From the NCBI GenBank assembly GCA_958496175.1, contig OY292275.1, positions 15,314,001 through 15,378,000 of the forward strand: a DNA stretch of 64,000 nucleotides, written 5' to 3'. The position numbers and the translations under genes are program-made. The notes under the pieces were generated by a model. It searched no databases. It had not been told where the DNA came from and saw only the letters and a list, made by a program, of their open reading frames with translations. Shown here piece by piece: positions 4,897 through 64,000 of the stretch. Position 1 is the stretch's first letter. The number at the start of each line of letters is the position of its first letter. This DNA is from Sisyra terminalis. Its lineage: Eukaryota; Arthropoda; Insecta; Neuroptera; Sisyridae.

Positions 4897-4919
4897 AATT
4901 AAGTTTACTAAAACATTAT

Positions 4920-7865: not shown

Positions 7866-7944
7866 TCATCAAGTAGTTTGGATCACTCCGTAACTGCTTT
7901 GTGATGATTCACGGAGTTACGGAGTGATCCAAACTGCTTGATAA

Positions 7945-7985
7945 CCACTGAGGAAGATTTATTGGCAATCGAAATACGTATCTGG
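7945..7985 (+). ncRNA. Hammerhead ribozyme motif, family 1, right arm
   Basis: CCA (7945-7947), CUGAGGA (7948-7954), stem II with GATT/AATC paired, GAAA (7971-7974), UACGUAUC (7975-7982), UGG (7983-7985). Stem I pairs CCA with UGG; predicted cleavage is after C7982. All invariant core bases are present. Stem II has lost its two inner pairs, so activity may be weak. Confidence 0.7.
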
Positions 7986-8128
7986 GCAATACGTCACGAA
8001 TATTTTTGTTTAAACTCTTGTTCAAATTTTTGTTTATAGTATGATTTTTATATATTATTATTTATTATATTAAATTATACTACATAAATTGGACCGCAAT
8101 AAATTCCATATATTGTATACACAGTATA

Positions 8129-10814
8129 ACTGTTCAAAGTCAGCGAAAACATCTTGTTTTGGTTTAATTTATGGTTTACATTTAAAGTTTTACATTGAGC
8201 ATTTAATATTTGCTCATAAGAAAGTATAAAATACTTCTTAAACTTGAATTTTATGGTTACACTGAAACATCGAATGTATTAAGTTTACAAAAGCTGTAGC
8301 TCACAAAAAGTTTATGGATACAAAACCTTAATGTAACCCAACAAATATTTTATCAACTTATTATATGAAAAGGCTAAATGAAAATTACTTATGATTTTTC
8401 TCTTTGAAAATCAGTTTCAAAGAGTTCAACAATATACCTAAGATCGAATAAAAAACACCAGATCGAAATCAAAGCTCAATTAATTAGACTAATTGATTTT
8501 ATTAGATCTCTGATTTTCTATTAAAACCTATATATTTGTGTTCATCGTATTATGTCGCATTAATTGATTTGGTCGCAGTATTTATTTTGGCTCATTAGCT
8601 TTCTGCTTTGGCGTAACTGTTAATATTTAATTGGCGCTGTTTATAAAGGAAGAAAGGAAATGATAACATTTTTATGCTCTGATAATGGACGTTTAATCGA
8701 TGGAAAGATCGCCATTAACGTACTTCACATCTATAGTGAAATACATTGATCAATGACGCGAAAGAATACCAACAAAATCAAAGTAGATAAGTTTTACATA
8801 ATAATGTTCCGCAAGATCTGTGAGAACGGTTTATAATCAGCATCCGTTCAGGTTTTCTTCTGTCACCGCATTACAAATAGACGAATCTGTCCTATTCCGG
8901 ATTGCAGGGACAAGGGGGATTTCCCTTGGGTGAGTTAACAGGTCAAATCTTTGATTTTTTAAACTAAGGAAAATCGACCAAAAATTATTCCATTTTTGGT
9001 AGATCTCCCAGAAAATATTCATTTTATTTTACAAATAAATATTTATGATTTTTATAAACAAAGAAATTGGTAAGCAATTAAATAAATCAAAAATTAGAAA
9101 AATTTTGATAAATTCAATATTTTTTTTGAGGTGCCACAATTGCTACCATATAAGCTACCAGTAGTTTAATATCAAATTTCAAACTGATTTCATTAAATAA
9201 CTGACAAGTCATCAAATGAAAATGAAACATGATCACCAAAAGATATTGGGAAAAAATTGTATATACCTACATACTTTGATTAGGATTCATCACAGTATTG
9301 TTAAGAAGAAAAATAATTGGAACTAGAATTTTCATTAAAAATTATTATCATGATCTTGAACAATTTTTTCGATAAAGTGAATAGAAAAATAATAATAAAA
9401 AAACATTTCAATTGCGAAAATTGTTTAAAAAGTTCTTAATGTCTTAAAATTTATCTACCATTTAAAAAAAACACATAAATTTCGTTAGATTGGGTTAAGA
9501 AATTTAAAAAAAAATCAAATATTTTTAAGGAAGTTGTCATAAAAATGTCTTGAAAACCAAAGAAAATAACATTCAGAAGTATACTATAACAAATTTGATT
9601 GTTAATTAAACCTATCTATAAATTACTATAAAATTTAAGAAGTAAATAGGATTTTGGTATTAAAACAAATGGTGTTATTGTTGTATACCCTGAAACAAAT
9701 CCCAACGAACCCGTCAAAATAAATAAATTAATCGTGAAAACGTATCAAAACTATAGTAGGATAATATATCCTAGTACCCACTAATAACCAATAAATAATC
9801 AAAAAAAGTTTACTTAAATTTGGTAATTGTGATCAATTATTATAGATTTGTACAATAGTAGATATACATTAATCATGCTTAAAGACTAAGAAATAAAAAA
9901 AATCTTTGCTAAACACCCGTTTATAATATGAAGGATTACTCAAAAATATATGTATCATCCGCTGATAAATCATCGCACTTCTAAAAATACCACTTGTTAC
10001 ATTTGCCAAATTGCCTCATAGTTGGTTATTTTTAGTACTTGTACCTTTGAGGGTTGAGATCATTATTATTTTTTCTTCCTTGTTTTTTTCCAATCAGGTT
10101 CTTGAAGACTCGAATTTGGTAGGCCTTATTAACCTCCGTCAATGTAAAGAAAAACTAAAAAAATACATTATTGGGACCTTGCATCCCTACAGTATTCAAA
10201 CATCAAAAATCATAGAAGGACTTTGAAATGATCAAAAGATGCCAAAGTAAAATTTGTCAGTCTTTTTTTGGAGCGGAACCTAACCGGATTCAGCGGAACC
10301 TAAGCGTCGAGGATGTCATTCAATTCATTAAGGAGATCCCAATTCGATACGTACAAAAGGTGGAAAAACATCCACAAAAGTTAGTCTTGGGAACACTAAA
10401 GAAACCTTCACACAAGAGACTAAAAATAGGGCTCATTATAGCTTTTTGTAGTTTTATCAATTTTAACTAATTTTGGTCTAGCTGTTGTATGGTTTTGGAT
10501 TTTATGTCTTATTTTTTGTATAAAGTTGTTAAAATTTTGCCATCCTTATTTCCTCGTGACGATGATTAGACGAATGTAAATAATTTGGTATTTTGGAGGA
10601 ACCTGCGCATTCAGTTCTTACCAAACAAAAATAAAATAACAAAAATTAATTAAATAACACCAACTTGACTTCGATCTTTGAAAAAAATCAATATTTCCGA
10701 AGCAGTTCTGCAAAATTGAGTCAACTTTGACCAGATTTTTTCAACAAAATTGATATTTTCTTAATTAAGAGGATACATATCGTTTAATAATCTTTGATCA
10801 AAGTTTGATGTGCC
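8129..10814. other. AT-rich non-coding stretch
   Basis: No supported gene. Two short adjacent open frames at 10011-10226 and 10228-10470 follow a pyrimidine-rich tract ending in CAG (a plausible splice acceptor near 10097), but their translations resemble no family I recognise and they are interrupted by a stop. No further repeats of note were seen. Confidence 0.5.
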
Positions 10815-11265
10815 TAAGGATGCAACATGGCTCATGAAAAATGTCGATATTAAAGCATTGATATTTTCAAGAGTGAAACATCGATGTTCAGAACATCGAC
10901 GTTTATGAACGATATATTTATTTTTTTCGATGGTTTTTAGCACCGTTTAGATATATTATTATAAAATACACCTTAAAAAATAATATATGAACCGTAAAAT
11001 CGTAAAATCCGCCAGTTTATATTCTAACGTCGTTAGATTACAATCTAGCCTACCGTTAGTTTATAAACTGACGTAATTTACAAATCTACGCTTGTGGTTG
11101 AGAGAGATATCTGTTTATGTATATTGCTGTAGACCATGAATCGTTTACAAAACATCGCTCTTGAAAAACGATATATCATCGATATTTTGGGTTTCAATAT
11201 CGACATTAAAATATCGATGTTTATGTACAATGTTTGAAAAAATCGATGTACCGTTTACATCCCTA
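10815..11265. mobile_element. hAT-like MITE, 451 bp, with imperfect 8-bp TSD
   Basis: Terminal inverted repeats are TAAGGATGCAAC at the left and GTTTACATCCCTA at the right, that is TAGGGATGTAAAC-like, a terminus common in hAT elements. Flanking octamers GATGTGCC (10807-10814) and GGTGTGCT (11266-11273) agree at 6 of 8 positions, the TSD length of hAT. The interior is rich in ATCGATGTT-type inverted motifs near both ends (about 10845-10925 and 11150-11250). No transposase. Confidence 0.65.
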
Positions 11266-11273
11266 GGTGTGCT

Positions 11274-13300
11274 ACATTAATTTTGACCAGCTAGAGTCGA
11301 CTTTGTGTAAAAAGTGGACTGGTCGTAGTTTACCAAGTAAATTTAAAAGGTAACCACCTGTATTTTTAAAAATGGTTGAAAAGAAAGTCAAACAAGATCG
11401 AAAAGCTTGTCACAGTTTTCGAAATAGGCGCGATGGAAATTGAAAACTCCAACTTACATCTACAGTGAAAGTGACTTATTGTTTTCCACATGTTCATTAA
11501 TCATTAGACCAATTTGAATCTAAATCGATTGATTTTGACCAAAAATAGCCATTGAACACGTCGCCAGATCAAGTTGCTTGCGTGTATTCATAAAAACAGT
11601 AATAATGAAAAATAAACAAACGCACACAAAAAATAAAAACGCGCCATAAATTTAAAAACAAACAAAAAAAAGTCAATAGTAAAAAACCTCCCACGTTTTG
11701 TCGATATTTTTAAAAATGAAAACTTCAATAAAACTCGATTTCTAAGTTCAAGTTCATGAAAATTTTTCATTCTTCTCGTTCAAGCCTTGCGAAAATGCTT
11801 CACATCAATTTACATCCGTTGGTGAGGCATAAAACAAATTTAAAATGTTGTATATAGCGTCATATTTTATCAAACTTTACGACGCAATTATAAATATTGT
11901 CGTTATCGTAAAATTCGACGATGATGGCGAGGGAAAATAATTACAGTTTCAGTATTGTATGTTTATTTGTCTGTCTGTCGCGTTGTGGTAAATCGACTTT
12001 ATTAGCTTTGATTGAATTTAATATTTTTCAGCTTAGCCACGTCTTAAATTAAATTTCGTGGTTTTTCGAAAAAAACTTATAATGTTTTATGTGATAATAA
12101 TAACTTCCTCTTATCGATCAATGTCACCTGGCATACCGAACTCGTCGCGAGTACGCCACTATACTTTTATCAATAATTTAATTTCGATTTTTATGAACCC
12201 TCATCTCGTTTCAGTTCAATGAAAATGTGACTGACGATAAAATTAACGATCCATATACAAACCCATGTTTGCAATGATCTGAATTCTTCCGAATACAAAA
12301 CAATGGTATATGTTGATTCCTTTAAAATTATTAAATATGAATTTTTGTTATGTCTCCAATATGTGTGGAAGTAATATAAGGCTAGGCATGTTTGGAGGAG
12401 TAGACCCTCTTCCCCGATTGATGCAATTCTGCACACTATTCCTTCCATTCAATATAGCTTTTCAATGAAAACAAGCAAGAGGGCAACTCTTCGGGCTTGG
12501 CCACCTTATGAATGTTTTATTACTTATCGATAGTGCACTTTTCACGAATTACAACGGAATTACTAGGTGGGACAAAGGGGGAACAACAGGAATGCCAGAG
12601 GGGAACGCACGTGTGTTACACTGCACCATAATGCAAGTGTGGGTGTGTGCAATACCTTTTTTAGTATTAAATCATTTTTATTAATTCTGAATAATTAAAG
12701 ACGCGAATTCTAGTGTGAAAAATTTGCTAGCTCATTGAATGGGTGTAGAATTGCATTTTGTTGTACATATACAATTCATATGTGTAACAGTTTCATTGAA
12801 CTTAGTTCAAGGCAATGTTTGCTTGCTTTTATTGATATTATGCATGTTCGTTCGCGCTTAAACTGTGGAAATATTAATGAATATGTTTTGGCTGTGTTGA
12901 AAACATTAATTTCGATAGCTGCAGAAATAATTTTGACTTGTTTTTATTGTTGAAATGCAAGTTTGATCGAATGCAATTTTGTCAAGATTGCAGTTTTCCA
13001 CTGCAAATAAATTGAAAAATAATTTAATCATAATAAGCCAAATTTATGATTACGAACTCTTTTTTTTTGAGTTGAATAAACGATACCAAGTTGTAAAACA
13101 AATGCCAAAAATTATGTGCTACACATTTAAATACTTATAACGGCAAATAATTCCTTGATAAAAGCAATATTTATTACGTTATAAATTCTTTTTGTAGTAA
13201 ATAGTTAAGTAGATATGGATGTTAAGCCAGTATTGGACAAAAACAAAACAGACATTAAAAATATTATTTATAGTTTCGAAGTATTGTGCTGATGATTTAA
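11274..13300. other. AT-rich non-coding stretch
   Basis: No supported genes or repeats. Open frames here are short, lack family resemblance and look random. GC content is slightly higher around 12120-12160 and 12400-12640. Confidence 0.5.
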
Positions 13301-13880
13301 AATAAGTAAGAAGACAATTCAGGTTGTTTCAGATCGGTTTTTTTATTTAATATTTTTATTATTCAATTAGCTACGTTTCGTTACTTATTGTAACTTCATC
13401 AGGCTTCTATAAAAATTAAAATAATTACAAAATATGTCAATCATACATAAATTTCAAAACTATAATAAAATACATATAATATAGTATAAAATATTTGTAA
13501 TTAAATAATTATACTAACTCAAAATTTCAAAATATGACAAATATTTTAAGAGATATTGTTATAAATAATTAAATATATAATAATAAAATTAATTAATAAA
13601 ATACCTTGATTCTCAAAAATAAAATATTTTCAATTTAAATTCAATAAATAAATTAAAATTAAAAAATTACACTCTACCCATACACATTACATGTAAATTC
13701 AGTGCCGCCTAAGGAGCCTAACTAACATCCAACCGCGCGTTATTCAAACATAGGTCTAGCAATTTAAATTTTTTTTTGAATTTATAAAGCAAATTAGAAT
13801 ATATCCCACTTAATTTTTTTGTTTCTGTACAGAAAATTTTAAAACCGATCTTAAACAACTTGAATTGTCTTCTTATTTAA
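13301..13880. mobile_element. Inverted-repeat element with a hammerhead motif (family 2)
   Basis: The outer arms are AAGAAGACAATTCAGGTTGT at 13309 and its near-complement at 13850-13877 (ACAACTTGAATTGTCTTCTT). The left arm continues into GATCGGTTTTT, an AT-rich stretch, CAATTAGCTACGTTTCGTTA and a minus-strand hammerhead. The right end is followed by a tail, AAAGCTGAGGTC...TTTTATCATCTATT, that also follows the family-2 element at 51.4 kb. The middle ~430 bp is AT-rich without an ORF. Confidence 0.65.
13369..13405 (-). ncRNA. Hammerhead ribozyme motif, family 2
   Basis: On the minus strand: AGC (stem I), CUGAUGA core (13402-13396), A, stem II GTTAC-AATAA-GTAAC with five perfect pairs, GAAA core, CGUA, then GCU, which pairs with AGC. 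All invariant core residues are present. Stem III is only the four-base palindrome ACGU without a loop, so a monomer would fold poorly; a dimer could form it. Predicted cleavage is after GUA. Confidence 0.7.
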
Positions 13881-13919
13881 AAAAATAAAAGCTGAGGTCT
13901 AAATTTTATCATCTATTTA

Positions 13920-14908
13920 AAATAAGAATGTCAAAGAGTTCATGATCAAAAAACACTAAATCTAATTTAATGAGTTTTCCAGGAAAAATTGAAAACTAAG
14001 GATATGGTTTTGACGGTAGTAAAATTTTCTAGTTCCATTTCCCATCGTACACAATGAAAACTGACCCTGAAAAATAAAATTTGACCACTAAGAATTTTTC
14101 CGCAAACTCGAACCATTTTTCCTTTACGTAGGTTGGTAGGTAGGTTTTGACACGTGTCCAGGGTTCCGCGATCGATGAAGGTCTGCTTGTTCCTGCTAGA
14201 TCGCCAACCGATAATCAATTTTCATTAACGCTAATCATTAATATGAACACTAAAAGAGTTTATTTATTTTATTTGGATTGCATTATATGTAGGTAATTAG
14301 TTATGTTTTGTAACAGTTGAGAAAATCTAGAATTTTGGCTATCTACTGTTTAAACTTATTTTAACAAAATAGTCATCTATCAAAGTCATAGGAGCCCTAT
14401 TATCCTAATGTCCTAGGACCTTCAATAGGGTAAGGATAACCCTGTCTCTCTCGATTTAATAATAATTTTCTTTTCGTCCTCATTGAAAACATAGCGAAAA
14501 AACGATGCTAGCTATCGAATCGTAGATCTGGCGGAAAAGTGTTTTTCACTCCATCTAGTCTAAGCAAAAGGCTTAAAAAGAGTTGATTTTCTTAATCGCT
14601 TCCTTAATTTAAATCTGATTAACTGAAACAAATGGAAAACCCATCGAAATATTCATTTTTCGACATAATTTGCCAATCTGGGTCATAGGATACCAAAAAC
14701 TACAAATAAAATCTTGAGCATTTTTTCAACCAGTTTTTGCTAAACTATTGTTGTAGAGTTATTAAAAGTTATTTACCAAAAATAAACATAGTGTTATGTA
14801 TGATTTTGGTTTTAATATTAAAGATCGTGCATAAATAATTTCCCGAATATGATTCATTATGTTTAATGATGCTTTATTTATTTTTTATTCTGGATCCATC
14901 ATTTTACA
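13920..14908. other. AT-rich non-coding stretch
   Basis: No gene or repeat recognised. A short minus-strand frame at 13967-14218 is not family-like. Confidence 0.45.
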
Positions 14909-15175
14909 AGAATCACCATTCGTGGAATCTGATCTTTTTTGTTCAAATATTGTGATGAAACATTTCTTCATTTTTAAACCTAAACATAAATCTTTCCTAA
15001 ACTTTTTTAATCGAAGATTGCAACGAAAGAAATATATATATATATATATATATATATTTCTTTCGTTGCAATCTTCGATTAAAAAAGTTTAGGAAAGATT
15101 TATGTTTAGGTTTAAAAATGAAGAAATGTTTCATCACAATATTTGAACAAAAAAGATCAGATTCCACGAATGGTG

Positions 15176-15180
<5 letters not shown>
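14909..15180. repeat. Perfect 272-bp palindrome with (AT)n centre
   Basis: Arms of 136 bp, 14909-15044 and 15045-15180, show no mismatch by base-by-base comparison (for example AGAATCACCATTCGTGGAAT at 14909 against the end at 15180). The centre is a short (AT)n run at about 15031-15056. A second (AT)n run of ~32 bp starts immediately after the right arm. Zero divergence means a very recent inversion event, a hairpin-primed duplication, or an assembly/fold-back artefact. Confidence 0.9.
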
Positions 15181-48740: not shown

Positions 48741-50192
48741 TGTGTATGATTAATATTTTTATCCCTTTTCAATCCACATGGGCAACGGACGGATTTTCTT
48801 TTTTCGTAAAACTTATTCAAATACATGAGAAATGAATGACTCGACTTTTTCATGGTGGCTTTAAAGGGAAAAGAGCCAGGGGATGACTTTGCATCAACCA
48901 AAAAGAACCGAATGAATCGAGCCGAAACGAGTTTGACCTTTTACCGACAGAGGTTATCATTTCGAATTCGGAACATTTGTTATTAACATGTCCGAAATGG
49001 CGTTAAAATGATTTATATAATATCTTCCTTATAAAATATTCAAATCTTCAAGCTATAACATTACATTTAATCGCTTATTATAACAATTTCGATCAAATAA
49101 ACTACACTATCCCAGATTTTCATTTCCCCGTTTCTACTCAAACCATTTTGGCGTTATCTTCACGAAAAAAACTCGTTTAATTAAACTTTATGGAATCATT
49201 TGCCGGTATGAATGTTCAAGTCGGTGATGTTCCAAGGGTGCATTTTGGGGGTGTGTTCAATTCTGATAATAACAGTTATGATTGCCTTTATCTTACCTGA
49301 CTGCTTTTAATCACCATGATATAATCTCAAAACCAGAACTACCCTTATTTAAGTTGGTAAATAAAAAGGGAGGATTTTGAAAAAAAATTAAGGGTTGCTT
49401 CACTAGATGGATGAGTGAATGAATTATGAAGTTCCTAGATAAATTTATCTACGTCAATTTCAAATTTCAACATATGTGTTTTATGTATTAAATATATTAT
49501 TAGACTCCCTCCTGTTTTTTTGTATTGCAAACCAACTATTATCACTTCATCCCTTATTGCCAATTGCCAATCCATCCTTGTAAACAAGACTATTGTACGT
49601 CTGTCAAATCATCATTTGTTCTTGTCATAATAACAATTGTTATGGAAGGCATTGAATAATTGAAATAATCGTTTTATGAAAATGGATGGAAATTATTTGA
49701 AAAGCATTTACGAATGATACGGGAAACCACGAGGAACTAGTTTTAAATACAATAGCTTTTTCTATGTTTATTGCCTAGCTGTGGTAACATTTTCCATATG
49801 AGGAAAAAAAAAAACTTTTCCTTCATTTTTACGATAGCAAAACCACTGTTTTTAAAGTCATGCTTACAATAAACAGTGCAATTTAATTTACTGTTTTAAT
49901 TTACGACTTAACATGAAAGTTGAGTTTGAAATTTTTGTAAATAAAAGAAGGTTGGCACAGGGTATATTGTAAATGGTAAATTATTAAAATTTTCTGAAAA
50001 TCGAACCGCTTTGTTTAGGGATTCGTATTTAAGTAAAAATTATTATAAGTAAAAAAAGAAGTGGGAAGTTATACTTATTTGGCGTAATTGAAAAAATGTT
50101 TTTAATCTACTGCTATAGCCTCATCTAGTAGTGCCTGAAATGACACATCAGTTACAAGTAGTTTGTGAAAACTAAAATATCATATAGTTTAA

Positions 50193-50924
50193 GGGTGGAT
50201 CACCGTCAGAACGTAAAAAAAAATGTTTTTTTTTAAAACTGCTGCCATTTTTTTTAGAGATATTAAAAAACGGTCTTCGGCATATAAATGTTGAAGTTTT
50301 GAACTATTTTTTTTTATTTGCTCCGATATGTCCCTCCCTCCCCCTTTTACAGCGCTTTGAAAAAGGGTCCTCAGAAATGAGGAGGCAAACGGGAGACAAG
50401 CTTTCTCGGAAACCGGAAGTCGGATCATGATTTTCCAAAGAATGTAGGTTTTGGTAATGCGTCTTCTTGGTACCGAACTTGGAAAATTTGAAAAAAGTTG
50501 AAAATTCACAAAATGGCGCGACTTTGAAAAAAAAGTTAAAAACAACGACGTTTTTTTGAACCTTTCCCCCTCTCTCACTTTGAGGGGGAGGAGGTTTGTC
50601 CAATTTCAGAGGTTCAGTACCAAGAAGACGTGTTGAACTATAACACTCTCCAGTTTCAAGTCAATCTGTCGGATAGTTTCTGAGAAATCTTGTCTCCCAG
50701 TTTTAAAAAGTTGATTTCGAGAAAAACGCATTTAAAGTTTCTTTAAGATATTTTTTTATGTTATTATCAATTAATTCAATTTTTATGTATATATATAAAT
50801 ATAGGTCTATAACTCGAAATATTTCGAATATCGACAAATCCTTTTAAGAAGTTATTCTTGAATGTTATAAGAAGACATTTATGGAAAAAAAAAACGATTT
50901 TTTTTTTCTGACGGGGATCCACCC
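50193..50924. mobile_element. TTAA-target MITE, 732 bp (Kolobok- or piggyBac-type)
   Basis: Termini GGGTGGATCACCGTCAGAAC and, reversed, GGGTGGATCCCCGTCAGAAA form ~19-bp TIRs. TTAA lies immediately outside each (50189-50192 and 50925-50928). A TTAA duplication is used by piggyBac and Kolobok; GGG at the tip fits Kolobok better. The interior has A/T runs and CCTCCCTCCCCC. The minus-strand frames across it are low-complexity and not transposase. Confidence 0.75.
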
Positions 50925-51225
50925 TTAATAACTATTTGCGAACAACTTCCTACTGTTGCAATGGCGTTACCTTTTATTTAAAAACCAGTTTAATCATTTT
51001 TCATAACGCCGCTAAAGAAGAATAACTTCAAAAACTGAAAAAAATTCACTGAGGAATTGTAATAAATTATTTGTATGAATCTATGCTTTTTCTTGCTTAC
51101 TAGAACTTAACGTTTCTATAAACTTCACGTTTCATCGTTTATTTAAGTCTTTGAAAACTTTATTTTCCAATTAATTTACATATACTAAAATTTATTTTTA
51201 AATATTCATATAATTTAGAAAAGAC

Positions 51226-51497
51226 AATTCAGGTTATTTAAGATCGATTTTTTTTATTTAATGTTTTTTAATTTTCAAATTAGCTACGTTTCGTTACGTA
51301 TATAATATTTTTATTCATTTTATTGAGTTTACACTATAATGTTTGTGTGATTCAATAAACCTGATGAAGTTTCGATACGTAACGAAACGTAGCTAATTTG
51401 AAAATTAAGAAATAATAAATAAAAAAATCTAATCTAAATAACCTGAACTGTCTCCTTTATTTAATAAAAGCTGAGATCCGAGTTTTATCATCTATTA
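51226..51497. mobile_element. Short inverted-repeat element with hammerhead motif (family 2)
   Basis: The left arm AAGACAATTCAGGTTATTTA (51231) to CAAATTAGCTACGTTTCGTT is the inverse of 51370-51450. The right side continues with AAAGCTGAG...GTTTTATCATCTATT, as in the family-2 element at 13.3-13.9 kb. The left arm keeps the GAAA side of the ribozyme but has lost the CUGAUGA side. No ORF. Confidence 0.65.
51358..51394 (+). ncRNA. Hammerhead ribozyme motif, family 2, degenerate
   Basis: CUGAUGA (51361-51367), A, stem II GTT-TCGATACGT-AAC with an inner CG pair, GAAA (51384-51387), CGUA, GCU. Core boxes are intact. Stem I is weakened (AAC instead of AGC opposite GCU) and stem II has a mismatch, so activity is doubtful. 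Confidence 0.55.
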
Positions 51498-54042
51498 TTC
51501 ATATAACTTAAGGAAAAAAATAAATAAAAGTCTATAAAAGAAGTCATAAATAAATTGCAAAATGTAATTCACTTAATTTTATTTTAACATTGTTTTTTTT
51601 TTTGAAACGTTAACTAATATAAAAATTTAAATATTGAAAAGCTAACAAAAGGTATTGTAGATCGCAGATCGTTTAAAGGTTCACTTAGAATAATTTTCAC
51701 AAGCATTTTTTTTAAACAACTAAATTAATTATTTTTATTGTTCAACTTTATTTCAAATCGTAATAGTAAGCAATGAAATACTCTATTCGCATGAATCAAA
51801 TGATTGCGGAAATTTTTCATTCCTCTTTTATGTATTCACAATTTTATATTAAGAAAAATCAGTCATAAAATTGTGTTTCAAACCGTTGACATGTTATCAT
51901 TAATAATATTAAAACCCATTAAAACATATTGTAAAGAACAAAAATCATCCCTTACCCTTAAAACTGACTCCCTTATCTCTTTCTAGACCAAACATAAAAA
52001 ATATCAGGAAATGTAAGAAATAAAAACGGCCATTTGGTCGAGACAAAATCATAAAAAAATATACTTAAAACGAGGAAATCAATTGATTGAAATTATTCCA
52101 ACCCTCAAGCATCATCTCTATAATTGTCAGTTTTAATGGATTTATTTTATTGTTGTGACTAGGGGATGATTTTCACAGATTTCGTAAATAATTGGTCGAA
52201 CTATTTCCGTGGTGGACTCTTTCGTTTAGTGATGAAAGGATATTGTCAATAAAAAGGGTTCGTGGTTAATTCATTTTGATTCCCATGAAAAAGATGAGTA
52301 AAGGATAAGCGTCGATTGACAAAATTCACACTTAATGAGGATATCCGGATTTATGAGCCATTTGGCTATAAGTGTGTTGGAGCTTTTGTATACCATTCCC
52401 CTTTGAAGCTTGCGAATTTTTTTTCGAATGTTGAATGAAGTCCGTAGAAAAAGCTTTTTTTGAAAGTATAATTTTGTACTTTTTTATGTGGAAGTTAATG
52501 TGAAAATTTAATCATTTGTGAATATAAAAGATAGTAGAAAATTTCTCTTGCAGAACTTCAAAGTGCAAAATAAATTTATTTACGACATTCTACCAGTGTA
52601 ACTGTCGTAAACTTGGCGTAGAATGTTGGAAAATTTATGTCACCCGGCACTAGATGGTATCGTGAAACAAATAAGTCATAACATTCATAAATTTAAAGCG
52701 AAACTTCACCATTAGTGAATAATGCAGATAAATAAAGCTCAATGCACACAACTGAAAAAAAAACATACGCTTTTTTTGTTTCCACTTTCCACGCCCATAT
52801 TATCCGCAAGAAATTTAACTCATTTCTCGATCTAGACAATCACTTATCGGCTATCCAATTTACTGCGATTTGTTACAGTTTTTCGTCAAGCCAATTTACT
52901 GATTTGTGCAGACTATTTAAACAATCCCGATACCATTTTTTTTAGTTTCGCTTCTCTCCTCTAAGTTTAGTTATATCAGTCAACATTATTAATCGTCTCT
53001 ATACTTCTGCTTACTGCGAATACACTACGATCATCAATTGCGTCAATTAGTGCTTTCGTATTCTGTTCACGGTTTGATGAACAGGATTTTACGATTCGTA
53101 AACAAACGAAGATCTAATTACGAACAGCCCAAAGCTCGGGAGGGAGGACAGCGCTGCTTGAGTTATGTGAACATAAGGGAAAACAAGCTGTAAAAAACCT
53201 TGAGAAGTTTTATTGGAAAAAAGATGGAGAGTTGAAAGAATCTCTAGAAGAAAAGAAAATACGTAGTTTTATCAAAGGAGTGCACGAAATGAGGATATTT
53301 TTATTCAATCTAAGTAGTGAACAAAAGACATTACGGTTATATCAGAAATGTTTACCTCAGAGCTTTAAAGCTCTTGACGTTGACTATTTCTTATTTTTTG
53401 TTCAAAACTCAATAATTTATATATCTTATTGCTTTAAAAATGAATATTTTGATTTCTTCTCTTTATTTTCTTTAAAAAATCAGTTTTTAGCTCTAGAGTT
53501 GATAACGTTTCTATACTTGGATAAAATATCCAATGATAAACTGAAAAACGTTAATAAAAGCACCTTTATCTTTCCATTAACCATCTAATAATTTTAAATG
53601 CGATTAAGATAAACTATTTTCTTTGATTTTAAATGAAATTTTATTGCGATAGAAAATAGAAAATCAAAATTTTGCGTTTTATAATGTGAAAAAGAAGGAA
53701 AGCTCTTTCCTCCACTATTAGCTTAATTAAGTATTTCTTGATCTGGAGTGCGGGAATGTATTTTTGGGAGTACAGGAGAAGCTCTTAACATTTATGTTGT
53801 TAAGAAATTTTTGATAATAATTTTGCAAAATTGTATTTTCCTATCATAAAAAAAGGAAACACCAAAAAACAAAACATTATCAATGGGGTGCAGACATTGG
53901 CTTAATTGAATAAGGAGTACAAAATGTAGGATAAAAATTTTCCAATATCTATAGTGGAAAGTCCAAAAAAAAACCTACAATTAAAAAAAGTTGTAATAAT
54001 AATTAACATTATTATTGTAGAGTTTCAGATCCTCGATGATGA

Positions 54043-54090
54043 TAAATTGGTAAAAATATTCCTAGTCCTCTGAATATTTTTACCAATTTA
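54043..54090. repeat. Small perfect hairpin (19-bp stem, 10-nt loop)
   Basis: TAAATTGGTAAAAATATTC and its exact reverse complement surround CTAGTCCTCT. No family recognised. Confidence 0.7.
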
Positions 54091-57082
54091 CATTATGTTT
54101 ATACGTGGAGAAAATTTTCAGTTGAATACAAGACTGGGGAGTTGGCCAAAATTATTTTGGGCTCCGGCTCCTCGATCTGAAGTCAATTATTTTCAGACTC
54201 TTACTTTGGCCCGGTTTCGACCTCAATCTTAAGAGTAGTAATGTATAAGCATAATTTTACGACCTAAGATGGCTCCGACTCCAATTCAAGCTTTACTAAA
54301 TAAAAATTTCAGCTCCGTTGTTCCCAACTCCAACTTTAGCTTTGGTCCTCCAGTCCTGGTTGATAAGTCGACAAATTCATAATCAACCATTTTCCCTTAG
54401 CATTTAAAGTATTTATAGAAAGAAATAAAAAGGAACCGCATAGATTTTTTCTATAATACAAAAGTAGTTTTTAGAAGATTCCCAAACGATATTAGACAAG
54501 GTAATTTTGATTCTTAGGAGTATTATAGCTATTTTCTTTCATTGGCTATCTTATATATAAAAGATACAATATTTGCCTTGTATAATGCAATGTAAACGAT
54601 TCTTTTTTTTTTTTGGAAATGGATTACCGTAATTGTTGACTTAAAACTGTCAACTTTGCTTAATTTATTTACCGAATGATTATTTACTGTTTCTGTTCGT
54701 CCAATTGTTAGACTTTGGAGGATCTGGAGACTTGGAGGGTTCTTGAGTTTCTCATTTAAATGCATTTAATCGTTAAAAAAATGGTAAACATTAAACATAC
54801 TATTCTTTACAAATATTTAATATTAAAGTTCTCTTTAAGAAAAATTAAAAATTTCTTAATATCATTTTGTGGTTTAAGATGAAGTCTTAAAGGTTTGTTT
54901 CACTTTAACTAAGGGGAAATATGCACATTTTCTTTGCTTTACTTATACAATCTAATTATTTTTTATTATAAAGATATACTAAGCTCCTTTTTTAGGGATT
55001 TCAGCAGAATTAAACAAGAATATATTTCGTTTATAACTTAACACTTTTCCAGTTAAATTTTTTCAATAATTAAGTAATACAATACTTACAGAAGACTCAT
55101 TGGAAATATTTTTAAACTAAATGGTTTTATTAAATTAGATTATTGTTCTTTGCCCCGAACGCTACTTAAAAGTGTCACTTTCCAGCCCTCATCCTTCAGC
55201 AAAAATACATTTTCCCAATGAATAAATCGGAAATAACCCCTACAGATAAGTAATAACACCCTTACAAATATTACATTACAAACAGCCCCATCTTTTCATC
55301 TTACATTAAAGGGATGTTTTTAAACATACGACACGTTTTCGAACAAAGCGTCAACTTTATTCTCCATTGCACCCTTGTCTCATGAGAATTATTTAGATAA
55401 AAATAGTTTAATTTTTTTTACTCTCTAATTTACAAAGGGCTTAAATCGCGTTACATGCAAATAAATAAATCATTGCCACCCTTTCTAATGTGAACTATTT
55501 TAATTTTTTTCAATGACTTGCTTTAAATGAAATAACTATAAATCAATGATTTCTTTATTTCTTGAAAAAAAATTTTCATTTTTGTTTGTTTTGTGGTTAT
55601 AAATATCAATAAATGGATAATTGACGCGTGGCCAGGGGTTGTTCGAGGGGTAAATATTGAAATTAATTTGACTTGAATTAAATTATTGCGCCCTTTTATT
55701 ATGTTTTTGAGAGATTTCAACCAACGGTCAAGACTTAAGTGTGTATTTTGCATTGAGCCGCCTACTTATTAAATGAGAAGTTTAATAATCATAGTGTGTC
55801 GTGTATGCGTTTGTCAAAATCATAGTAGGTGGCGGGAATATTCAAAATTCTCTGATTTCCTCTTATCGTATGTCAGTGGAATAAAAAGAAAAAAAATGAT
55901 TAATTTTTTTTAAGAAACTATGGCGTTTCGTGGTGCCGTTTAAGCTGTGTGATTTACGATCGTATTTCGCAATCATTTATAAATAAAATATTTTTATTGT
56001 AGATGTGGATGTACTTGTATACAAATACATTTATAAAAAGCTAATTGATGGCGTTTTTCATGAGCCGAAAATTAATTACCATGCACTTGAGGGCTTGTGA
56101 TTTAATGTGTGAGTAAGGAATTTACATGTCTCAATAAATAAGACGACATACAAGTGTTTGTAGGCGGCTATGGATCATCTTTTTATTTCCTGTTCCGACC
56201 CCTCTTCTCTCCTCTGCACCTTTGACCAACTGCCCTCTAGGTATAGCTCGAAAAAAAGTATTCTTGCAACATTGAACTTAAATAAGGCTCTTATTTTTAT
56301 TTCAACTTTAATCTTTTATCACTTCCAGTCTGAACCTTTTCCTTTTTAAAAACATTTTAACTATAAAACTGTCCATTTATTGATTTGAAAAACTTTTAAC
56401 AAACTTGTTAAACAGTTTAACCAGCATCTAAAGTTTTTGCAAAGAAACTTGTTTAAACAAGTGATAACTTCAAAGTTTGGAAGAACTAGTAACATATATT
56501 TTTTACCAGTATGTAAGTTCAGAACAGGAAAAGCAATTAACTGATAAAAGCTCACTATACTTAACCAATACCATTGGTTCAACTTTGAATGAAAAAAAGT
56601 AATAAAGAAAGTTGCTTCAATAACCTTATTCAGATTTGTGTTTAAAGAGCTTTAGCATTAATTTACAATACGTTCAATGTTGTGATTCATGATCTCATCA
56701 AATTCCCTTTTAGTCTTAAATTTAACAATGAAGTTTTGCATATAAAAATCAGTCTTCCAAATCTTTAAAAAATAAACAAAATTGTTTAATAAACTTCTTT
56801 TAGCTTACCTGGACCCCAATCTACTAAAGACAAGCATATAAAATATGAAGAATGAAGGGTAGTTGGCAAAGGACACTATAAACTATAGAATGTCTTCTTT
56901 TGATAAATTTATTTAAAACTTTAAGGGTACAAATAAAATGTAATGGAAAATTAGGTATTTTCCAAGTTCAAAATATGAAAGGCTAAAGCTTTTTTAACAA
57001 AGACAATTGAACCTAGAGCTATAAGCTAAATAAATCGGCATGAAAATATATTTTATGATACTTAAGAGAGGTTTACAGTTTA

Positions 57083-58262
57083 GGTACTAATGAAATACTA
57101 AGATCCTGGGGCTTAAGGATCTCAATTGGTTTCCGTGAAAAAAAATAAGTGAAAAACAGAAAACTTTTTTTTCATAGAATTGACACAACCGATTGATCTA
57201 AAATGTTATTACAATTTAGGGGTTGAATGTTGATAATGTCCTTTTTATAAAGAATTAACAACTTTAAAGCCTTATAAAATCTATAAAACAATAACTTCTT
57301 TTATGAAAAAAAAAATTGTTACGATGATACATACGTAATAAGTCGTAATAACTTTTAAAAACTTTGCCTACAAAAAAAATAATTTACAGTCACATGAGAG
57401 AATCCTTTTTCATAAATTAAAATTGGAAATTTAACAGGTTTTAAAAATCAATACGAGCCTACTGGTGCTGGTAGGTTCTGGTTTTGAATCTCGTATCAAG
57501 CAAATTTTCGATTTTACTCGAAAACGAATTTTTATTAACCTTAGAGTCGCTAAAGACCTAATTGTAAAGAGATGGTATATTACAATTAAAAAAGAAGTTA
57601 TTACGGCTTATTTTGTATCATTCAGCTTATATTGTTTTATACATTTTATAAAGCTATATAGTTGCTAATTTTTTGTAATAAGGACATTATAAACTTCTGA
57701 ATTGTAATAACAATATAGATCAATCGGTTGTATAAATTATAGGAAAAAATGTTTTCTGTTTTCTACTTCTTATTTTTTTCTCGTAAACTAATTGAGATCC
57801 TTAAGCTTCCAAGATCTTAATATTTGATAAGTACCAATGTCTTTTATTAGTACTCTGTCAATTCACTTTGCTTAAAGTTCTAGGTTCTTTATTTATTTTA
57901 ATTGGAAAAACTAATTTCACTTTAAAATCTCGTTTGGCGATTGAATCAAAATCACTAATAATGGCAAAATGATTTTCCAGAATTAAATAAGTTTTCTCAA
58001 ACTTGATTAAAAAAAATTTTATCTTCATTAATTGATCATTATTGAAATTATCACTTGATTCACTTTTTGACTTTTAATCAAATGATATTAATTAAGAATA
58101 AATAAAGTGTGAATAATTCAAGTAATGCACTAATATCTAATGAAAGCACACACAGTTCAATGCACGTGGCTATTAGCCAATCAGATTGCGAAATTTGAAG
58201 CTGTTCATTTGTTTTGATTGTTGAAATTTTAAAAATTTAACAAAGCTCCTCCCAGATTCAAT
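57083..58262. mobile_element. Inverted-repeat composite, copy 2 of the dispersed repeat
   Basis: 57083-57836 is an imperfect palindrome centred near 57460 (GGTACTAATGAAATACTAAG and its near-complement at 57815-57835; GATACATACGTAATAAGTCG against its partner near 57605). The following 57840-58262 matches 32690-33025 (CACTTTTTGACTTTTAATCA, TTAGCCAATCAGATTGCGA, TGTTCATTTGTTTTGATTGT). Thus the copy at 32.4 kb has one arm plus tail, and this one has two arms plus tail. A 67-residue open frame at 57465 is only arm sequence. Confidence 0.75.
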
Positions 58263-58730
58263 GCTCAATGCATATAATGTATATACTTATTCACCTCAAA
58301 TAGAGCAATTAATATTAATTAAGCGCGAAAGTGCTTTTTATTATTATTTTTTTAACTATGAAGTACTATTTTAAAATCAGAAAAAATCTGAGATTATAGA
58401 GACTACATAAAACTTAAAAAATATATTTTTAATGCGGTACTAATATTGTTTTATGGTTATTTTTTTCCATAAAAAGTATTATTTTGATGTTGATAATTTT
58501 TGATAGATGATAATAACCCTAAATCATATTTAAATTTTACAAAAAGTAGTTGAGTAATCTTCAAGAAAAAAAGGCCAAAATAAATCCTCATTTCATATAC
58601 TCTATAGATCCAAATGACATTGAATTTTTGTCCTTATATATATGCTTAATAATACCCTAATATTAACATAAAATTTTTAATAAAGACAAACTAGATAATA
58701 AATCTTCAATAATTAACTCGCATTATCTCT

Positions 58731-59394
58731 TTCCAGTTAATTTTATTAAATAAATATTAAGTACTGAATGTTGATTGATGAGAGCATTTGATCTAATGTA
58801 TTTTCTTGAACTCATGGAGAACAATATCTTTACTGGAATTTTCAATAAGAAAGAAAATATTGCTCAGAATATTCATAATATTATAAGAATGCTATAAAAA
58901 ATATTATAACTTGAATTATTATTAATTTCATAAATTATTTGATAAAGTTAAAATAAAGAGTTTTCATTAACCCCTTCAGTGTTACTGTTATATAATTTCA
59001 AATTTTACAACAAAATTTGAGCTAAAATTCAATAGAAACGGGTTTATGAAATTGATATATTTTTCCAGTTAATTTTATTAAATAAATATTTAGTATTGAA
59101 TGTTGATTGATAAGAGCATTTGGTTTAATATGTTTTCGTAAGCTCTTGAAGAACAATATTTATAATCGAATTTTCAATAAGAAAAAAAATATTGCTCAGA
59201 ATATTTATAATACTAAAAGAAAAATATTATAAGTATATTATAAAAATGTTATGACTCGGAATATTCATATTGTTGATAATTTCATAAATTATTTCATAAA
59301 GCTAAAATAAGGAGTTTTCATGAACTACTGCGTTGTTATTGTTATATAATTTTTTTCCATACAACAAAATTTGCATAAAAATACGATAGAATTG
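58731..59394. repeat. Diverged tandem duplication, ~332-bp period, two units
   Basis: Units begin at 58731 and 59063 with TTCCAGTTAATTTTATTAAA. Both contain TGTTGATTGAT, AGAGCATTTG, GAATTTTCAATAAGAAA, ATATTGCTCAGAATATT and ATTTCATAAATTATTT. Non-coding. Confidence 0.85.
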
Positions 59395-60064
59395 AAATAC
59401 TATAAAATTGTTTAAAAAATCAAAAGGTAGAGGCAATTACATATAAATATTTTAAAATTGGATTATAACGATTAGTACCACAAATATTGAAGATGGAAAT
59501 GATATTACTTAAGAAATAAAGTGAAAAACAAATTCGCACATATTATGTTCCTGTATCTTTCATTTGTGTAAAAATGGAAGGAATACATATTTATAAGAAA
59601 TTCGTTTAAACTCTAATACTTTTCAAAATGAAAACTATCTCTATTAAGTTCTACTTTCCCCATTTCGCTAAAATATAACACTCTGGCTAAACGGAGACTT
59701 AAAAACTGAGGGTAGTAGATCCCTATACAAAATTGGTCGTAAATCACTTGGTACGTTGAGCATTGTAAAAAGCTCTATAAGGTTTCAATGTTGAAGAATA
59801 ACCAACCTATACTTAATGGATTCTACTGAATAAAAGAAAACCTTATTTAATATGGATTGATTTTGCGACAAATAGTGTATTTCGCAGGGATTCCAATTTG
59901 TTACATACTACCAAAACTTGCGTTTTTATGAATAGCTATAGTTGGCTATAGTTTTGTTATACAAATAAATGATAATTATTGTTTTCCTTTCAAAAACCGA
60001 CATAAACTTTATAAAATTTCTGAGTTTTTTACACGTAATAAATCAGTTTTTCATGTTTTTTCAG

Positions 60065-60271
60065 AGTAAATGCGACGTGGCCAGTTTAGTGGACCGTCTT
60101 CTGGGACCACTTTATCCAAACTTCAAAAACACCCGGCCCGTTTTAGTGCGGCAAGCACGCGATCTTCTCGTTTGCGAATATCTCGGAAACATTGGCCGTT
60201 TCGAAAGCGAATTTTGTCAGCCGGCCGCCGCACTTTTACGCCGCGTGAAGCACGAAGCCCACGGTTACAAG
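60065..60271 (+). CDS. Internal coding exon of an unrecognised gene (69 codons)
   Basis: The open stretch lies between TTTTTTCAG (ending 60064) and a GTAAGA donor at 60272, phase 0 at both ends. The translation starts SKCDVASLVDRLLGPLYPNF and continues KNTRPVLVRQARDLLVCEYL, GNIGRFESEFCQPAAALLRR, VKHEAHGYK. It has the look of a compact, conserved, probably helical segment, with the highest GC content of the window. Same strand and phase as the exon at 44013-44762, so I infer one gene with a 15.3-kb intron; this could be wrong if another exon or gene lies between. I do not recognise the family. The gene continues beyond the window on the 3' side. Confidence 0.8.
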
Positions 60272-62171
60272 GTAAGAAAAGAATTTATTCCACTGCATCT
60301 TATCTTCTTACTTCAAAATATAATTAACGCCTAAGAGACCTCCAAATAGACATTCAAATTTCAAGTCGCCTTTGTATATTTATTCCTCGTGTGAGACCCA
60401 AATTGGTTGCATAATAATTTTTATTATGCTTGGTGTTATAGAAATTTGACCTCAGAGATAATTCTTGGAGATCAAGAAGGGCTATTTTTCGTCTTCGGTT
60501 TAGAAGCAGCAGTAGGTTTTGGATGCGTTGCCGCCTTTGATTAGTTGAGACACCGGGGTGTCTGAAAAAAAATTATCAGGGCTTTAAATTGGAAAAAAAG
60601 TAAAAGTTTTAATTTCTTCATCGACGTTGGGTACTTGATGATCGGTTTTTTGGCTTTGTTAGGTCTCGGATTTGGTCGAGTTTTATTGAATTACCGGAGG
60701 AGGTTTACTTTATTTTGTTGTTGGTAAATCACCCGGATGCAATAATATTATAATAATGTGAAGGCATGAAGCACGATATGCATATAAAACCTGTGTCACA
60801 ATGTCTTTAATAGGGGTCAAACGAGAGCGCGCAATCTGCACTCTGAATTGTTGCACATGCATTTAGGTATATGGGTATGTACCTACATGTACATGCGAGC
60901 GAATGCACGAGCTTCCCGATATCGTAATTATAAACGTTTTATCCTAAATTGATTCGTAACACAACGACAGACCGACGGAACGACGGACAGATCTATATAA
61001 AATACGCGACGGACATGAATATTTCTTGAACGCGACAGGGGAGGGATGAAGAAATGGGGCTTCGTCGTAATCGTTTTTATCAGATTGTGAACAGTTTTGC
61101 ATTTTTCTATGCATTTTTCTTCTAGATGCACTTTTTATTAAATGCATTTTATTTATGTTTCCCACGGTTACCGTCACTCTGAATTTATAACGAATTTTTT
61201 CCAATTCCTTTTGGAAATGACTTTTCCATTTAAATTCAATCCAATGAAAGTTTTTTTTTCTGTTCTCTTCAACACTGCTCGTCTCTGTCCCAACAATTTC
61301 CTCTTTGACATTTAATGCGGTTCAAATTTTCTGCTTTTTCAAAAACGATATTTCATTACCGATTTTTTTTAGTTTGTACAGTTAAATGGAAAGAAGGTGA
61401 CGATGGACGGCATATTTAAATCTTTCAAGATTTCAATATTTTTGAGTCGTTATTGTTATGTGTGATAGTTTTGAGAGAGACGAGGGCTGTGAGTAAAATT
61501 GTGGTGAAATGGAGATGAAATGAGGAAAAAATCTCTCACGATTTCTTCTCGAACGACGTTAAGTGTTCACTTTTTATCGTCGATAAGTTGTGTGGTCAAA
61601 TGCTGCGGGACTATTGTATTATTCTTATTTTGGACGGTGATGGGTCAAACCCTTTCGTTTTCTATTGTGATTCTAAAGAGGAGGTTAAACGAAAATTGGA
61701 TGATAGATCTTTCCATTTTTTCATTCTTGATTATTTTCTCGAACTTTTCCATTCCAACTTTTATGATATTTTTGACATTTGAATTATTTAGATCCAAAAG
61801 AAAAACATTCTTTTGACATCGGAAAATATGTTATTTTCCAAATTGGAAAGTAGCATAAATTCTAGTTAAAATAGTTGAAAAAATAAATCTAGAAAACAAA
61901 AGAAAAAACTAAAATTCCCAATAAAAAAAAAAAACTTTTGTTCGAGCTTTCAGCTATAAAGCTCTTAAGTAAAATTTTCGTTATGGAAGTGAATCTTAGT
62001 GAAATAAGTTGGAATATTCAGCAGTAGGTACGAACGTCTGAATTATAAGCTTTGTTATTCAGTAAAATAGTTAGTTATTGATGACTAGTAATTTCCCGTG
62101 AAATATTCATAGACCAACTATTAAATGGTACAAAATGGTAATTAAATGATATCAAAATAACTGTTGAAACT
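60272..62171. other. Probable intron sequence with a TATA-like CpG block
   Basis: It begins with the GTAAGA donor. TATATAAAA at 60994-61002 sits in a CpG-rich stretch (GACGGAACGACGGACAGATC and ACGCGACGG), a weak candidate for an internal promoter. ATGTACATGC-type repeats occur near 60880. No exon recognised. Confidence 0.35.
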
Positions 62172-62227
62172 ATGGATAATAATATATATATATATATATG
62201 TCTTTGAGATTCAATTAAAAAATTACT

Positions 62228-62276
62228 TTATTACGACGCGTTTCGACAGTTTTTGACTGTCATCATCAGGTAATAT
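62228..62276 (-). ncRNA. Hammerhead ribozyme motif, family 3, left arm
   Basis: On the minus strand: UAUUAC (stem I), CUGAUGA (62269-62263), UGACAGU-CAAAA-ACUGUC (perfect 6-bp stem II), GAAA (62244-62241), CGCGUC, GUAAUA. Stem I has six pairs (UAUUAC with GUAAUA). Stem III nucleotides form the palindrome ACGCGU. Predicted cleavage is after GUC, at 62235/62234. All invariant positions are satisfied. This is the best hammerhead in the window. Confidence 0.82.
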
Positions 62277-62317
62277 TAATAATAATATTTTTATTTAATT
62301 TAACATTATTATTATTA

Positions 62318-62366
62318 TTATTACCTGATGATGACAGTCAAAAACTGTCGAAATGCGTCGTAATAA
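62318..62366 (+). ncRNA. Hammerhead ribozyme motif, family 3, right arm
   Basis: Stem I TTATTAC / GTAATAA (seven pairs), CUGAUGA (62325-62331), stem II GACAGT/ACTGTC, GAAA (62350-62353), UGCGUC (62354-62359), predicted cleavage after C62359. The only defect relative to the left arm is U instead of C just after GAAA, which turns one stem III C-G pair into U-G. Confidence 0.78.
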
Positions 62367-62639
62367 AGTAATTTTTTAATTGAATCTCAAAGACATATAT
62401 ATATTATTATCCATTAATTTATTGTGATTCGGAAGTAAATAAAATACTTATCAATATTGAAACTATAATTGTAATCAGTTAGTTCCAATTTTAGGCAAGA
62501 TTACAATTTACTTAATATGTGCTTAAAACGTTATTAAAGTTACATGAATTGTGCTGAAAACAAAAATGTTTATTATTATCATCTCTTTGTAACTAAAGTT
62601 TAATAGTATCTGGTACTTTCATGGTTGATTTCACCCCTT

Positions 62640-63240
62640 ATTTCAGGTATATTTTCGGATATATAATACAGAATGTTCTGGTGAACATATAGTTCTGATC
62701 AACAACATAAAAATCGTCCTTAAATTTTGAAAATTTCCAAAAAAAATGAACGATGGTTGGAAAATCTTTGCCATCATATCGGCTGAAATAATAATGGCAT
62801 GTCGACAGAAAAATTGGAGGCTATCAAAAATTGATCGCTAAAATTGATCGGTCTAGTATCAAAAAGTTATTGAGCTATATTTTAAGGTCCTCGCCATTGT
62901 CGAAAGTATGGCCTTTCATATGGCTCGATAGGTAGCGGAAAAATAGTAATCCGTTGGTGCCAGGATCGAAGAATACGGTGGATGCTGTAGGAACTCCTAC
63001 TTAAATTCTTGGAATGCAGTTTTAAGGTTTTTTGCAACATGAGACCTGGCTTTGTCGCTAAGGACTATAGTTTAAATTTGTCGATAGGGTCTTTTCATTT
63101 GCCGTATTTTCCGAACCTTGCATCGACGGATTTTCCCGCTTCCTGTAGAAGCATATGGGGGAGAGAGGTACTTTCGACAATGAAGAGGACCTTGTACACT
63201 GGCTCAACTAACATACTCCTTTAATACCAAGCTGGGGTAT
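62640..63240 (-). pseudogene. Mariner-family transposase relic
   Basis: The minus-strand reading gives VLSDKARSHVAKN, then after a stop codon EFLQHPPYSSILAPTDYYF, then with a 1-nt shift RYLSSHMKGHTFDNGEDLK. These correspond to the mariner blocks 'HDNARPHVAK', 'LPHPPYSPDLAPTDYHLF' and 'GK.F....DLK'. The Asp of DKARSH (63054-63056) and the Asp of PTDY (62949-62951) are 34 residues apart, the D34D spacing of mariner. At least one stop and one frameshift lie in this part. The first catalytic Asp region upstream (63060-63240) is barely recognisable. No terminal repeats were found. Confidence 0.8.
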
Positions 63241-64000
63241 TTTTGGCGGAACACAATCAACAAATTGATCTAGAGACAAGAGAAGGCCCGAAACCGCGAT
63301 GGCGATTACAAAATTGATTAATTTATTGTTACAACTATTGACTTTTAAATGAATTTAGTCTTTGATAAAAACCCTACGGATTTATTTCTTAACCTCTTAT
63401 TTAATTCTTAACTCCACGCAAAGGTTAGAGTATAGTAAAAATGATCCCTTGCATTTCTTTTTATCATTATATAACAAATCCTATAGTAAACCGTATTTTT
63501 TTATAAATTAAATTATTGCTGTTTAATCCTTTTCATAAATCAACTAAATTTTATTTTGATTTTACGATAAGTAAAAAATTACCTTGAAAATTGCTTAATT
63601 ATTTAAAACAGGGAAAAAATAGCACGCAATTCAAGAAAATCAAATTTAAATGCAAATTTGTTTTTTTTCCTCTTCATTATCAATGACATGACTGAAAATT
63701 TCTGAAAATATTTCAAAGAAAAACGCGATAGGACAATAACACGTATTGTAAAATTCACTACCTTCCCTTTAGGGGGTAGTAACTCATTCAACATGAAAAT
63801 GAACTTGAAAATTGAACGATATACTAAGCCATTGCCTTGGTTTTTTTATCAGTGTTCCTAGAAATTTCTTGGAAAATCGCTTGGTTCTTTGGTTACAGGA
63901 AATGGAAAATTATCCAAATTAGAATCAATATTGCAATGTGGGAATCGGGGTAAATTGGGGTACTTCTACAACTAGGTTTCGGTACTTGATGTACTAGGTA
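63241..64000. other. AT-rich non-coding stretch to the window end
   Basis: No gene or repeat recognised. Confidence 0.45.

Follow-up and report, generated by a model that had tools for sequence, protein, structure and literature searches.

The segment at positions 62174–62456 of the window (the whole 64,000 nt of Sisyra terminalis contig OY292275.1 analyzed here) very probably represents one insertion of an endonuclease-bearing Penelope-like retrotransposon (estimated probability about 0.93). It appears to consist of two head-to-head, 5'-truncated copies of the 3' region of the element (the pseudo-LTR), each with a minimal hammerhead, and to have been produced by two-ended priming. Insertions of this kind are already known, and the observation of two inverted hammerheads in a palindrome, made in a first-pass annotation, is confirmed. 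The hundreds of arm copies in this one genome are a record of the reaction by which Penelope-like elements insert.

Structure of the insertion

The palindrome extends over positions 62172–62414, as had been annotated. Its arms (62190–62293 and 62301–62404) are 104 nt each and 96% complementary, with four mismatches at arm positions 4, 6, 18 and 54; the outer arms (62172–62191 and 62395–62414) are 100% complementary. The left flank ends in TTGAAACTAT, and a second copy of this sequence is located 42 nt past the right end of the palindrome. Taken alone the duplication is modest evidence, as 157 of 20000 random flank pairs score equally high and its score is matched in 291 of 60000 anchored tests and in 90 of 1000 unanchored shuffles. 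The parts of the insertion are listed in Table 1.

Table 1. Features of the palindromic insertion and of two second-family insertions in the window
Feature	Positions	Strand	Basis
Left target-site duplication TTGAAACTAT	62164–62173		Exact 10-nt match to 62457–62466, abutting the element
Left element copy, tailless, 5'-truncated, beginning at the putative proximal reverse-transcription start	62174–62293	−	96% complementary to right copy; build shared with fetched palindromic copies
Minimal type-I hammerhead	62229–62275	−	No helix III, ACGCGU self-complementary; cut predicted at 62235/62234; covariance model E 3.3e-12 (partly circular); predicted dimer fold is a double hammerhead
Spacer between arms	62294–62300		Centre between the cores differs from those of 39 other palindromes
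Right element copy, up to the putative proximal start	62301–62412	+	Arm complementarity; build shared with fetched palindromic copies
Minimal type-I hammerhead	62319–62365	+	Cut predicted at 62359/62360; helix III palindrome altered by C to T (AUGCGU); covariance model E 1.9e-10 (partly circular); predicted dimer fold is not a double hammerhead
One-sided tail between putative proximal and distal reverse-transcription starts	62413–62456	+	42–44 nt, inner border uncertain by 2 nt; one-sided in 38/40 copies and 20/21 scorable loci
Right target-site duplication TTGAAACTAT	62457–62466		Exact 10-nt match to left copy
Second-family insertion, same build	13307–13914		Minus-strand hammerhead-like core at 13402; left arm long, right arm short and tailed; ATTTAAAATAAG duplicated (12 bp) at 13295–13306 and 13915–13926
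Second-family insertion	51223–51495		Left arm short, right arm long and tailed; duplicated sequence imperfect (51203–51222 / 51496–51517)

There is one hammerhead core per strand, with CTGATGA...GAAA at 62325–62353 (plus) and 62241–62269 (minus). The spaced core pattern, which was composed after the sequence had been seen, occurs twice in the window where 0.14 occurrences are expected. Each core displays CUGAUGA, an extra U, a 6-bp stem II, GAAA, YGC, a GUC cleavage site and a stem I of 7 bp (plus) or 6 bp (minus). Helix III is missing on both strands, where GAAA is followed directly by YGC and GUC, and the motif is a minimal type-I hammerhead, i.e., one with CUGAUGA, stem II, GAAA, an NUH site and stem I. 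The annotation had described these elements and the two cut positions correctly, as read from the sequence, but omitted the U before stem II and the missing helix III. According to passages in PMC7761336 and PMC7229834, Penelope-like elements contain minimal type-I hammerheads that lack helix III; those of Penelope-like elements and Terminons, likewise in pseudo-LTRs, are said in PMC7761336 to act as dimers.

Two insertions of a second family, at 13.3 and 51.2 kb, also have a hammerhead-like core, head-to-head arms and a one-sided tail of ~42 nt; that the tail is common to these insertions indicates that it belongs to the element. The 5' ends of their arms are unequal. The nucleotide between CUGAUGA and stem II is U in family A and A in the second family. 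The duplication at 13.3 kb is exact over 12 bp, and 19 of 20000 random flank pairs score as high. The one at 51.2 kb is imperfect over ~20 bp; none of 20000 random flank pairs score as high, although 22 of 1000 unanchored shuffles are as good and the exact-match test finds just 5 nt.

The build resembles that of Penelope-type elements of Adineta vaga (Pen2a_Av and others), for which the text of PMC3846280, in part, describes head-to-head inverted pseudo-LTRs, a 31-bp tail on one of them and duplications of 8–10 bp. The window copy differs from these in that all coding sequence is lost, leaving a palindrome of ~0.25 kb that has many counterparts in the genome; its tail is ~42 nt rather than 31, and no frame is open through it. 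Inverted pseudo-LTRs and short 3' extensions are mentioned in PMC8969392 as well. Pfam searches gave no match, neither in the six frames of window positions 1–15000 and 49000–64000 (E 0.001) nor for ten longer ORFs (E 0.1).

Copies in the genome and their coding relatives

A search of the 376.6-Mb genome with the 243-bp palindrome, a check that had been proposed with the annotation, finds at least 88 matches (from scoring 40 of 1214 candidates). Genome-wide there are 378 occurrences of a 34-nt arm pattern containing two open letters, and none of its reversed control. Among the 100 places listed out of the 378, there are 10 pairs less than 200 bp apart and 3 pairs at 1.2–2.8 kb (counted by eye), and all 13 of these pairs under 3 kb are inverted, head to head. 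Eighty loci were fetched. Sample 1 comprises 40 palindromic places including the window copy (L137–L176), picked by similarity to the query. Sample 2 comprises 40 arm-seeded loci from one contig (L177–L216), made up of 37 single places and the three long pairs. It excludes one place already in sample 1 and those in six close exact pairs; as a result of leaving out the close pairs it is biased against palindromes.

The tail is found on exactly one side in 38 of the 40 copies of sample 1; it is on both sides in L161 and absent in L165, and an inverted piece of host flank precedes it in L149 and L155. In 24 of 33 testable copies the ends are abutted by a duplication of at least 8 nt, compared with 11 of 1056 cross-locus pairs. 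The untestable copies are L165, which has no tail, and L149, L152, L153, L156, L170 and L175, where the left end was not recognized. In sample 2, 21 loci have two recognizable ends, and of these 20 have one tail, L195 has two and none is tailless. Duplications of 8 nt or more are present in 17 of the 21, all 17 one-tailed, against 24 of 420 cross-locus pairs. Insertions with no duplication of 8 nt number 9/33 in sample 1 and 4/21 in sample 2. Loci L190 and L191, identical in truncation and duplication, seem to represent a single insertion present twice, and the tail given to the second end of L192 sits 0.8 kb away; with these doubts removed the one-tail count in sample 2 is 18/19. The remaining 19 of the 40 loci are unscorable for the tail; L182 and L186 have tail-only stubs on the second side (by eye), and others, e.g., L183, have no second end.

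Together, the two samples comprise 61 scorable insertions, 58 of them with exactly one tailed end. With an independent choice of start at each end, no more than half of the insertions would be one-tailed, and the chance of 58 or more is ~1.6e-14 (binomial, calculated by hand). Penelope-like elements are characterized by short target-site duplications, pseudo-LTRs in direct or inverted orientation and a tail of 30–40 nt on one end. Short duplications and inverted pseudo-LTRs are present here, and the tail of ~42 nt on one end was judged to correspond.

The arms of sample 1 are 96.1% identical within a copy and 92.1–93.3% identical between copies. In 14 of the 40 copies no foreign arm is closer than the copy's own partner, a count kept low by the small number of variable sites. 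Six subfamily alleles agree from arm to arm in 37/40, 27/29, 32/32, 31/31, 27/29 and 33/34 copies, where 20.3, 20.7, 22.2, 22.6, 17.3 and 23.1 are expected, respectively; the allele columns were picked after the arms had been seen, and copies lacking the flanking motif were dropped. The centres of the palindromes are distinct in 40 of 40, with lengths of 39–162 nt and a median of 50 (the longest is L175, which has a third arm). Distinct centres combined with arms alike in their alleles imply that every palindrome arose separately, and from a single kind of RNA.

The arms of L184, L187, L188 and L189 are truncated independently of each other. The 40 palindromes have the truncation zone of the window copy because they were chosen by similarity to it, and the idea that the template RNA begins ~20 nt upstream of the hammerhead was dropped, as in other loci the arms run on across (ATT)n and enter a coding frame. 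Truncation at the ribozyme cut was considered as a sign of activity and no case was found; 12 listed arm matches begin inside the arm, one of them (L188) 2 nt before the cut, and near the cut the matches of L206 and L209 are fortuitous alignments within the AT-rich centre. In three of the 40 palindromic copies (L149, L155 and L161) the host flanks are themselves inverted copies, of 136, 149 and 230 nt. This inverted host DNA may be an assembly artefact.

An intact core is absent from 15 of 80 arms. In 40 copies no variant on the CUGAUGA positions is common to both arms, an observation that is weak owing to the few events, and L175 has a GAAA change common to both arms. Selection on the core, as judged from shared variants, was rejected because the events are too few.

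Loci L177, L178, L179 and L202 have coding sequence upstream of the arm. The four sequences are mutually similar, and in each the frame stops and is followed by (ATT)n and then by the hammerhead. The piece from L178 matches RVT_1 with 20.0 bits and an E value of 6.1e-4, below the Pfam cut-off of 29.6; the 364-aa piece from L178 has no GIY-YIG match in Pfam. The best GIY-YIG match, from L202, is 17.4 bits (E 0.0057), below the cut-off of 22.6, and those of L177 and L179 (E 0.03 and 0.041) are level with unrelated Pfam families. Among 56 homologues, GIY-YIG is found in seven and RVT_1 and GIY-YIG together in three, and a reverse transcriptase and a GIY-YIG domain were judged to be present in one element at Pfam scores below the curated cut-offs. 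The letters GIY...YIG are visible in the frame of the coding relatives, which we take to be the GIY-YIG motif.

In neither of the window's two families does an open frame run from the ATG of the hammerhead to the end of the tail, in contrast to the elements of PMC11167929 and PMC3846280, and stops are present in all frames; the pseudo-LTR thus does not include an ORF start. To our knowledge there is no rule that an ORF start in the pseudo-LTR is universal, although it is reported for two published elements. The ORF start may be spliced. The RT/GIY-YIG-like coding relatives, together with the pseudo-LTRs, the tail and the duplications, identify the family as endonuclease-bearing and Penelope-like, and the link to Penelope-like retroelements suggested in the annotation is upheld. 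It had also proposed a tiny non-autonomous unit. The unit is mobile and has copies in the genome; it is not self-standing, since relatives run from an RT/GIY-YIG-like frame straight into the hammerhead, and it represents a truncated Penelope-like insertion.

RNA folding and hammerhead-like motifs

Secondary structure prediction for the minus-arm segment as a monomer does not give a hammerhead (-11.3 kcal/mol). When two minus-arm molecules are folded without constraints, a canonical double hammerhead is predicted in which ACGCGU pairing serves as helix III (-26.1 kcal/mol, a value without a shuffle control). The plus arm, with AUGCGU, shows no double hammerhead in the dimer prediction; the energy of its segment is -12.2 kcal/mol. 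A transcript that spans the full palindrome is predicted, for either strand, to form one long hairpin with a delta G of -152.5 or -147.1 kcal/mol, and the sense core lies in the 3' arm whichever strand is transcribed. Given the missing helix III, the dimer-only double hammerhead and the single sense core inside a very stable hairpin, hammerhead self-cleavage of RNA from this locus, as had been proposed in the annotation, is unlikely on the predicted energies. Both arms of the window copy run through the hammerhead cut site, which indicates that its templates were uncut there. A stem-loop at the tail, of the kind described for the Poseidon element of Anolis carolinensis (PAc), is not supported (z 1.36, -0.50 and 1.07).

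The Rfam search that had been suggested finds no family at gathering score in the entire window, and its hammerhead models give no match in 62000–62600 at E ≤ 10. This silence is not a refutation, because hammerhead-like motifs that have three stems and the same extra U go unrecognized by Rfam too, and after this three-stem control Rfam was set aside as uninformative as a test of the motif. In a viral collection the pattern CCTGATGATGAC...GTCGAAACG, which represents the core and stem II of the window copy and leaves stem I and the cleavage site outside, occurs 18 times on 14 contigs. Four of these motifs were dropped before testing: L123 and L125 are near-copies of L100, and in L110 and L128 stem I is not visible. 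A 5-bp stem I is present in all 14 remaining motifs, and their three-stem structure shows both-sided changes in 9 of 17 pairs. Rfam does not find a hammerhead at seven of the motif loci in the viral collection (L110 among them), nor around the L084 motif at E ≤ 10.

A covariance model built from the 14 motifs matches both arms of the window copy (Table 1), in a test that is only partly independent since the motifs were gathered with a pattern from the window core and stem II. The second-family cores are not significant with the same model (E 1.5 for the 51-kb locus and E 2 for the 13-kb locus). No arm-like patterns are present in the viral and prokaryote collections, which may omit this genome.

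Among the viral-collection contigs, three-stem hammerhead-like motifs with the extra U after CUGAUGA are found in L011, L027, L084, L087, L100 and L121–L127, and Rfam shows no hammerhead at the six of these loci scanned. L087, L124 and L127 have two or three such motifs per contig, spaced 330–600 nt. L087, which has three, also has an Rfam pistol ribozyme match at positions 1279–1355 (53.8 bits).

Mode of insertion

In the proposed mechanism, the endonuclease of the element would make a staggered break in the target, and each exposed 3' end would prime reverse transcription of the element RNA. One cDNA would begin at the proximal start (...ATTATTATCC) and the other at the distal start, ~42 nt further 3'. 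In the window copy both cDNAs would have stopped in (AUU)n just upstream of the hammerhead, and joining of the cDNA ends would then give the palindrome, the one-sided tail and the target duplication. The order of events, the action of the protein and the joining are presumed; the duplications, one-sided tail, two starts, shared alleles, unique centres, independent truncation and coding relatives are read from the loci.

The PAc system provides a close parallel for the reaction. Sections of PMC11167929, where it is described as the first active in vitro, report that the Penelope-like protein cleaves and extends both strands, that internal starts occur at two sites bounding the tail, and that the hammerhead is dispensable for insertion in vitro. 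Cleavage of the Anolis hammerhead took place there only when its protein was supplied. PAc shares with the present family a hammerhead of stems I and II only, the two starts bounding the tail and the priming of both target strands. It differs in that its ORF starts at stem II (PMC11167929), whereas here the core is located ~8–20 nt past the ORF stop and its ATG soon meets a stop.

A paired asymmetric reaction, in which both target strands prime and the two cDNAs take different starts (proximal and distal) nearly every time, is slightly favored. The near-strict use of one start of each kind suggests an unequal two-subunit complex, or a single RNA on which the first cDNA consumes the distal start. 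Against the proposed mechanism, a passage in PMC11167929 gives the start site as not differing between the strands in vitro. The build of the element and its ribozyme were already known for Penelope elements; the near-strict one-of-each start rule may be new. The titles and abstract openings searched, a scope outside which most of the subscription literature falls, make no link between tail asymmetry and two-ended priming.

Self-priming, in which the 3' end of a single cDNA folds back at (AAT)n/(ATT)n and copies itself into a palindrome, would also give alleles common to both arms of a copy; it is proposed in a part of PMC3846280, for an antisense template. The palindromic host flanks of 136–230 nt in three of the 40 copies fit such fold-back copying, one of them with a tail on both sides as predicted, and some copies may use this other route. 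However, self-priming would copy the tail too, which is at odds with the one-sided tails of nearly all scorable insertions, and it does not fit the unequal arm 5' ends of L184, L187, L188, L189 and the 13.3- and 51.2-kb loci. Self-priming is disfavored for most copies and is improbable as the general explanation.

A non-autonomous retrozyme-like unit with self-cleaving RNA, in which the antisense arm acts as an off-switch, is still less probable. The intact cores, the double hammerhead fold of the minus-arm dimer and the lack of both-arm variants on CUGAUGA positions would agree with it, and animal non-LTR retrozymes are likewise small, retrotransposed and equipped with a type-I hammerhead, as a part of PMC7229834 describes. 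According to that source retrozymes are direct tandem repeats of 150–450 bp, one hammerhead in each repeat, whereas the present pairs are arranged head to head, with coding relatives, and no tandem array was found at 62172–62414. Read-through of the cut site, a hairpin far more stable than the plus hammerhead segment and the arms without an intact core also argue against it. Antisense pairing between the arms, as had been suggested, would occur, in the form of a permanent hairpin; no finding indicates an on/off switch, and the arrangement is explained by the proposed mode of insertion. Ribozymes placed head to head in a palindrome do not necessarily form a regulatory device.

A palindromic DNA transposon (a MITE or foldback element) that acquired a hammerhead and transposes as one unit would account for a palindrome with repeats up to its ends, in a window that has several other inverted repeats, yet it is the most improbable explanation, as the duplications lie beyond the one-sided tail and so do not abut both palindrome ends, every centre is different, and relatives extend into RT/GIY-YIG-like coding sequence.

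The family is useful for telling fold-back copying apart from two-ended priming and gives a sharp, testable start-site rule.

Other repeats are present in the window. At positions 14909–15180 there is a palindrome, perfect over 136 nt, that has no spacer and is centred on (AT)n; a (TA)n run follows it, and no hammerhead was found in it by the core scan. A direct repeat of ~2 kb (positions 52–2060 and 3896–5916, ~3.84 kb apart) is 93–98% identical in segments, and it flanks an inverted repeat that contains (AT)n over 119 nt.
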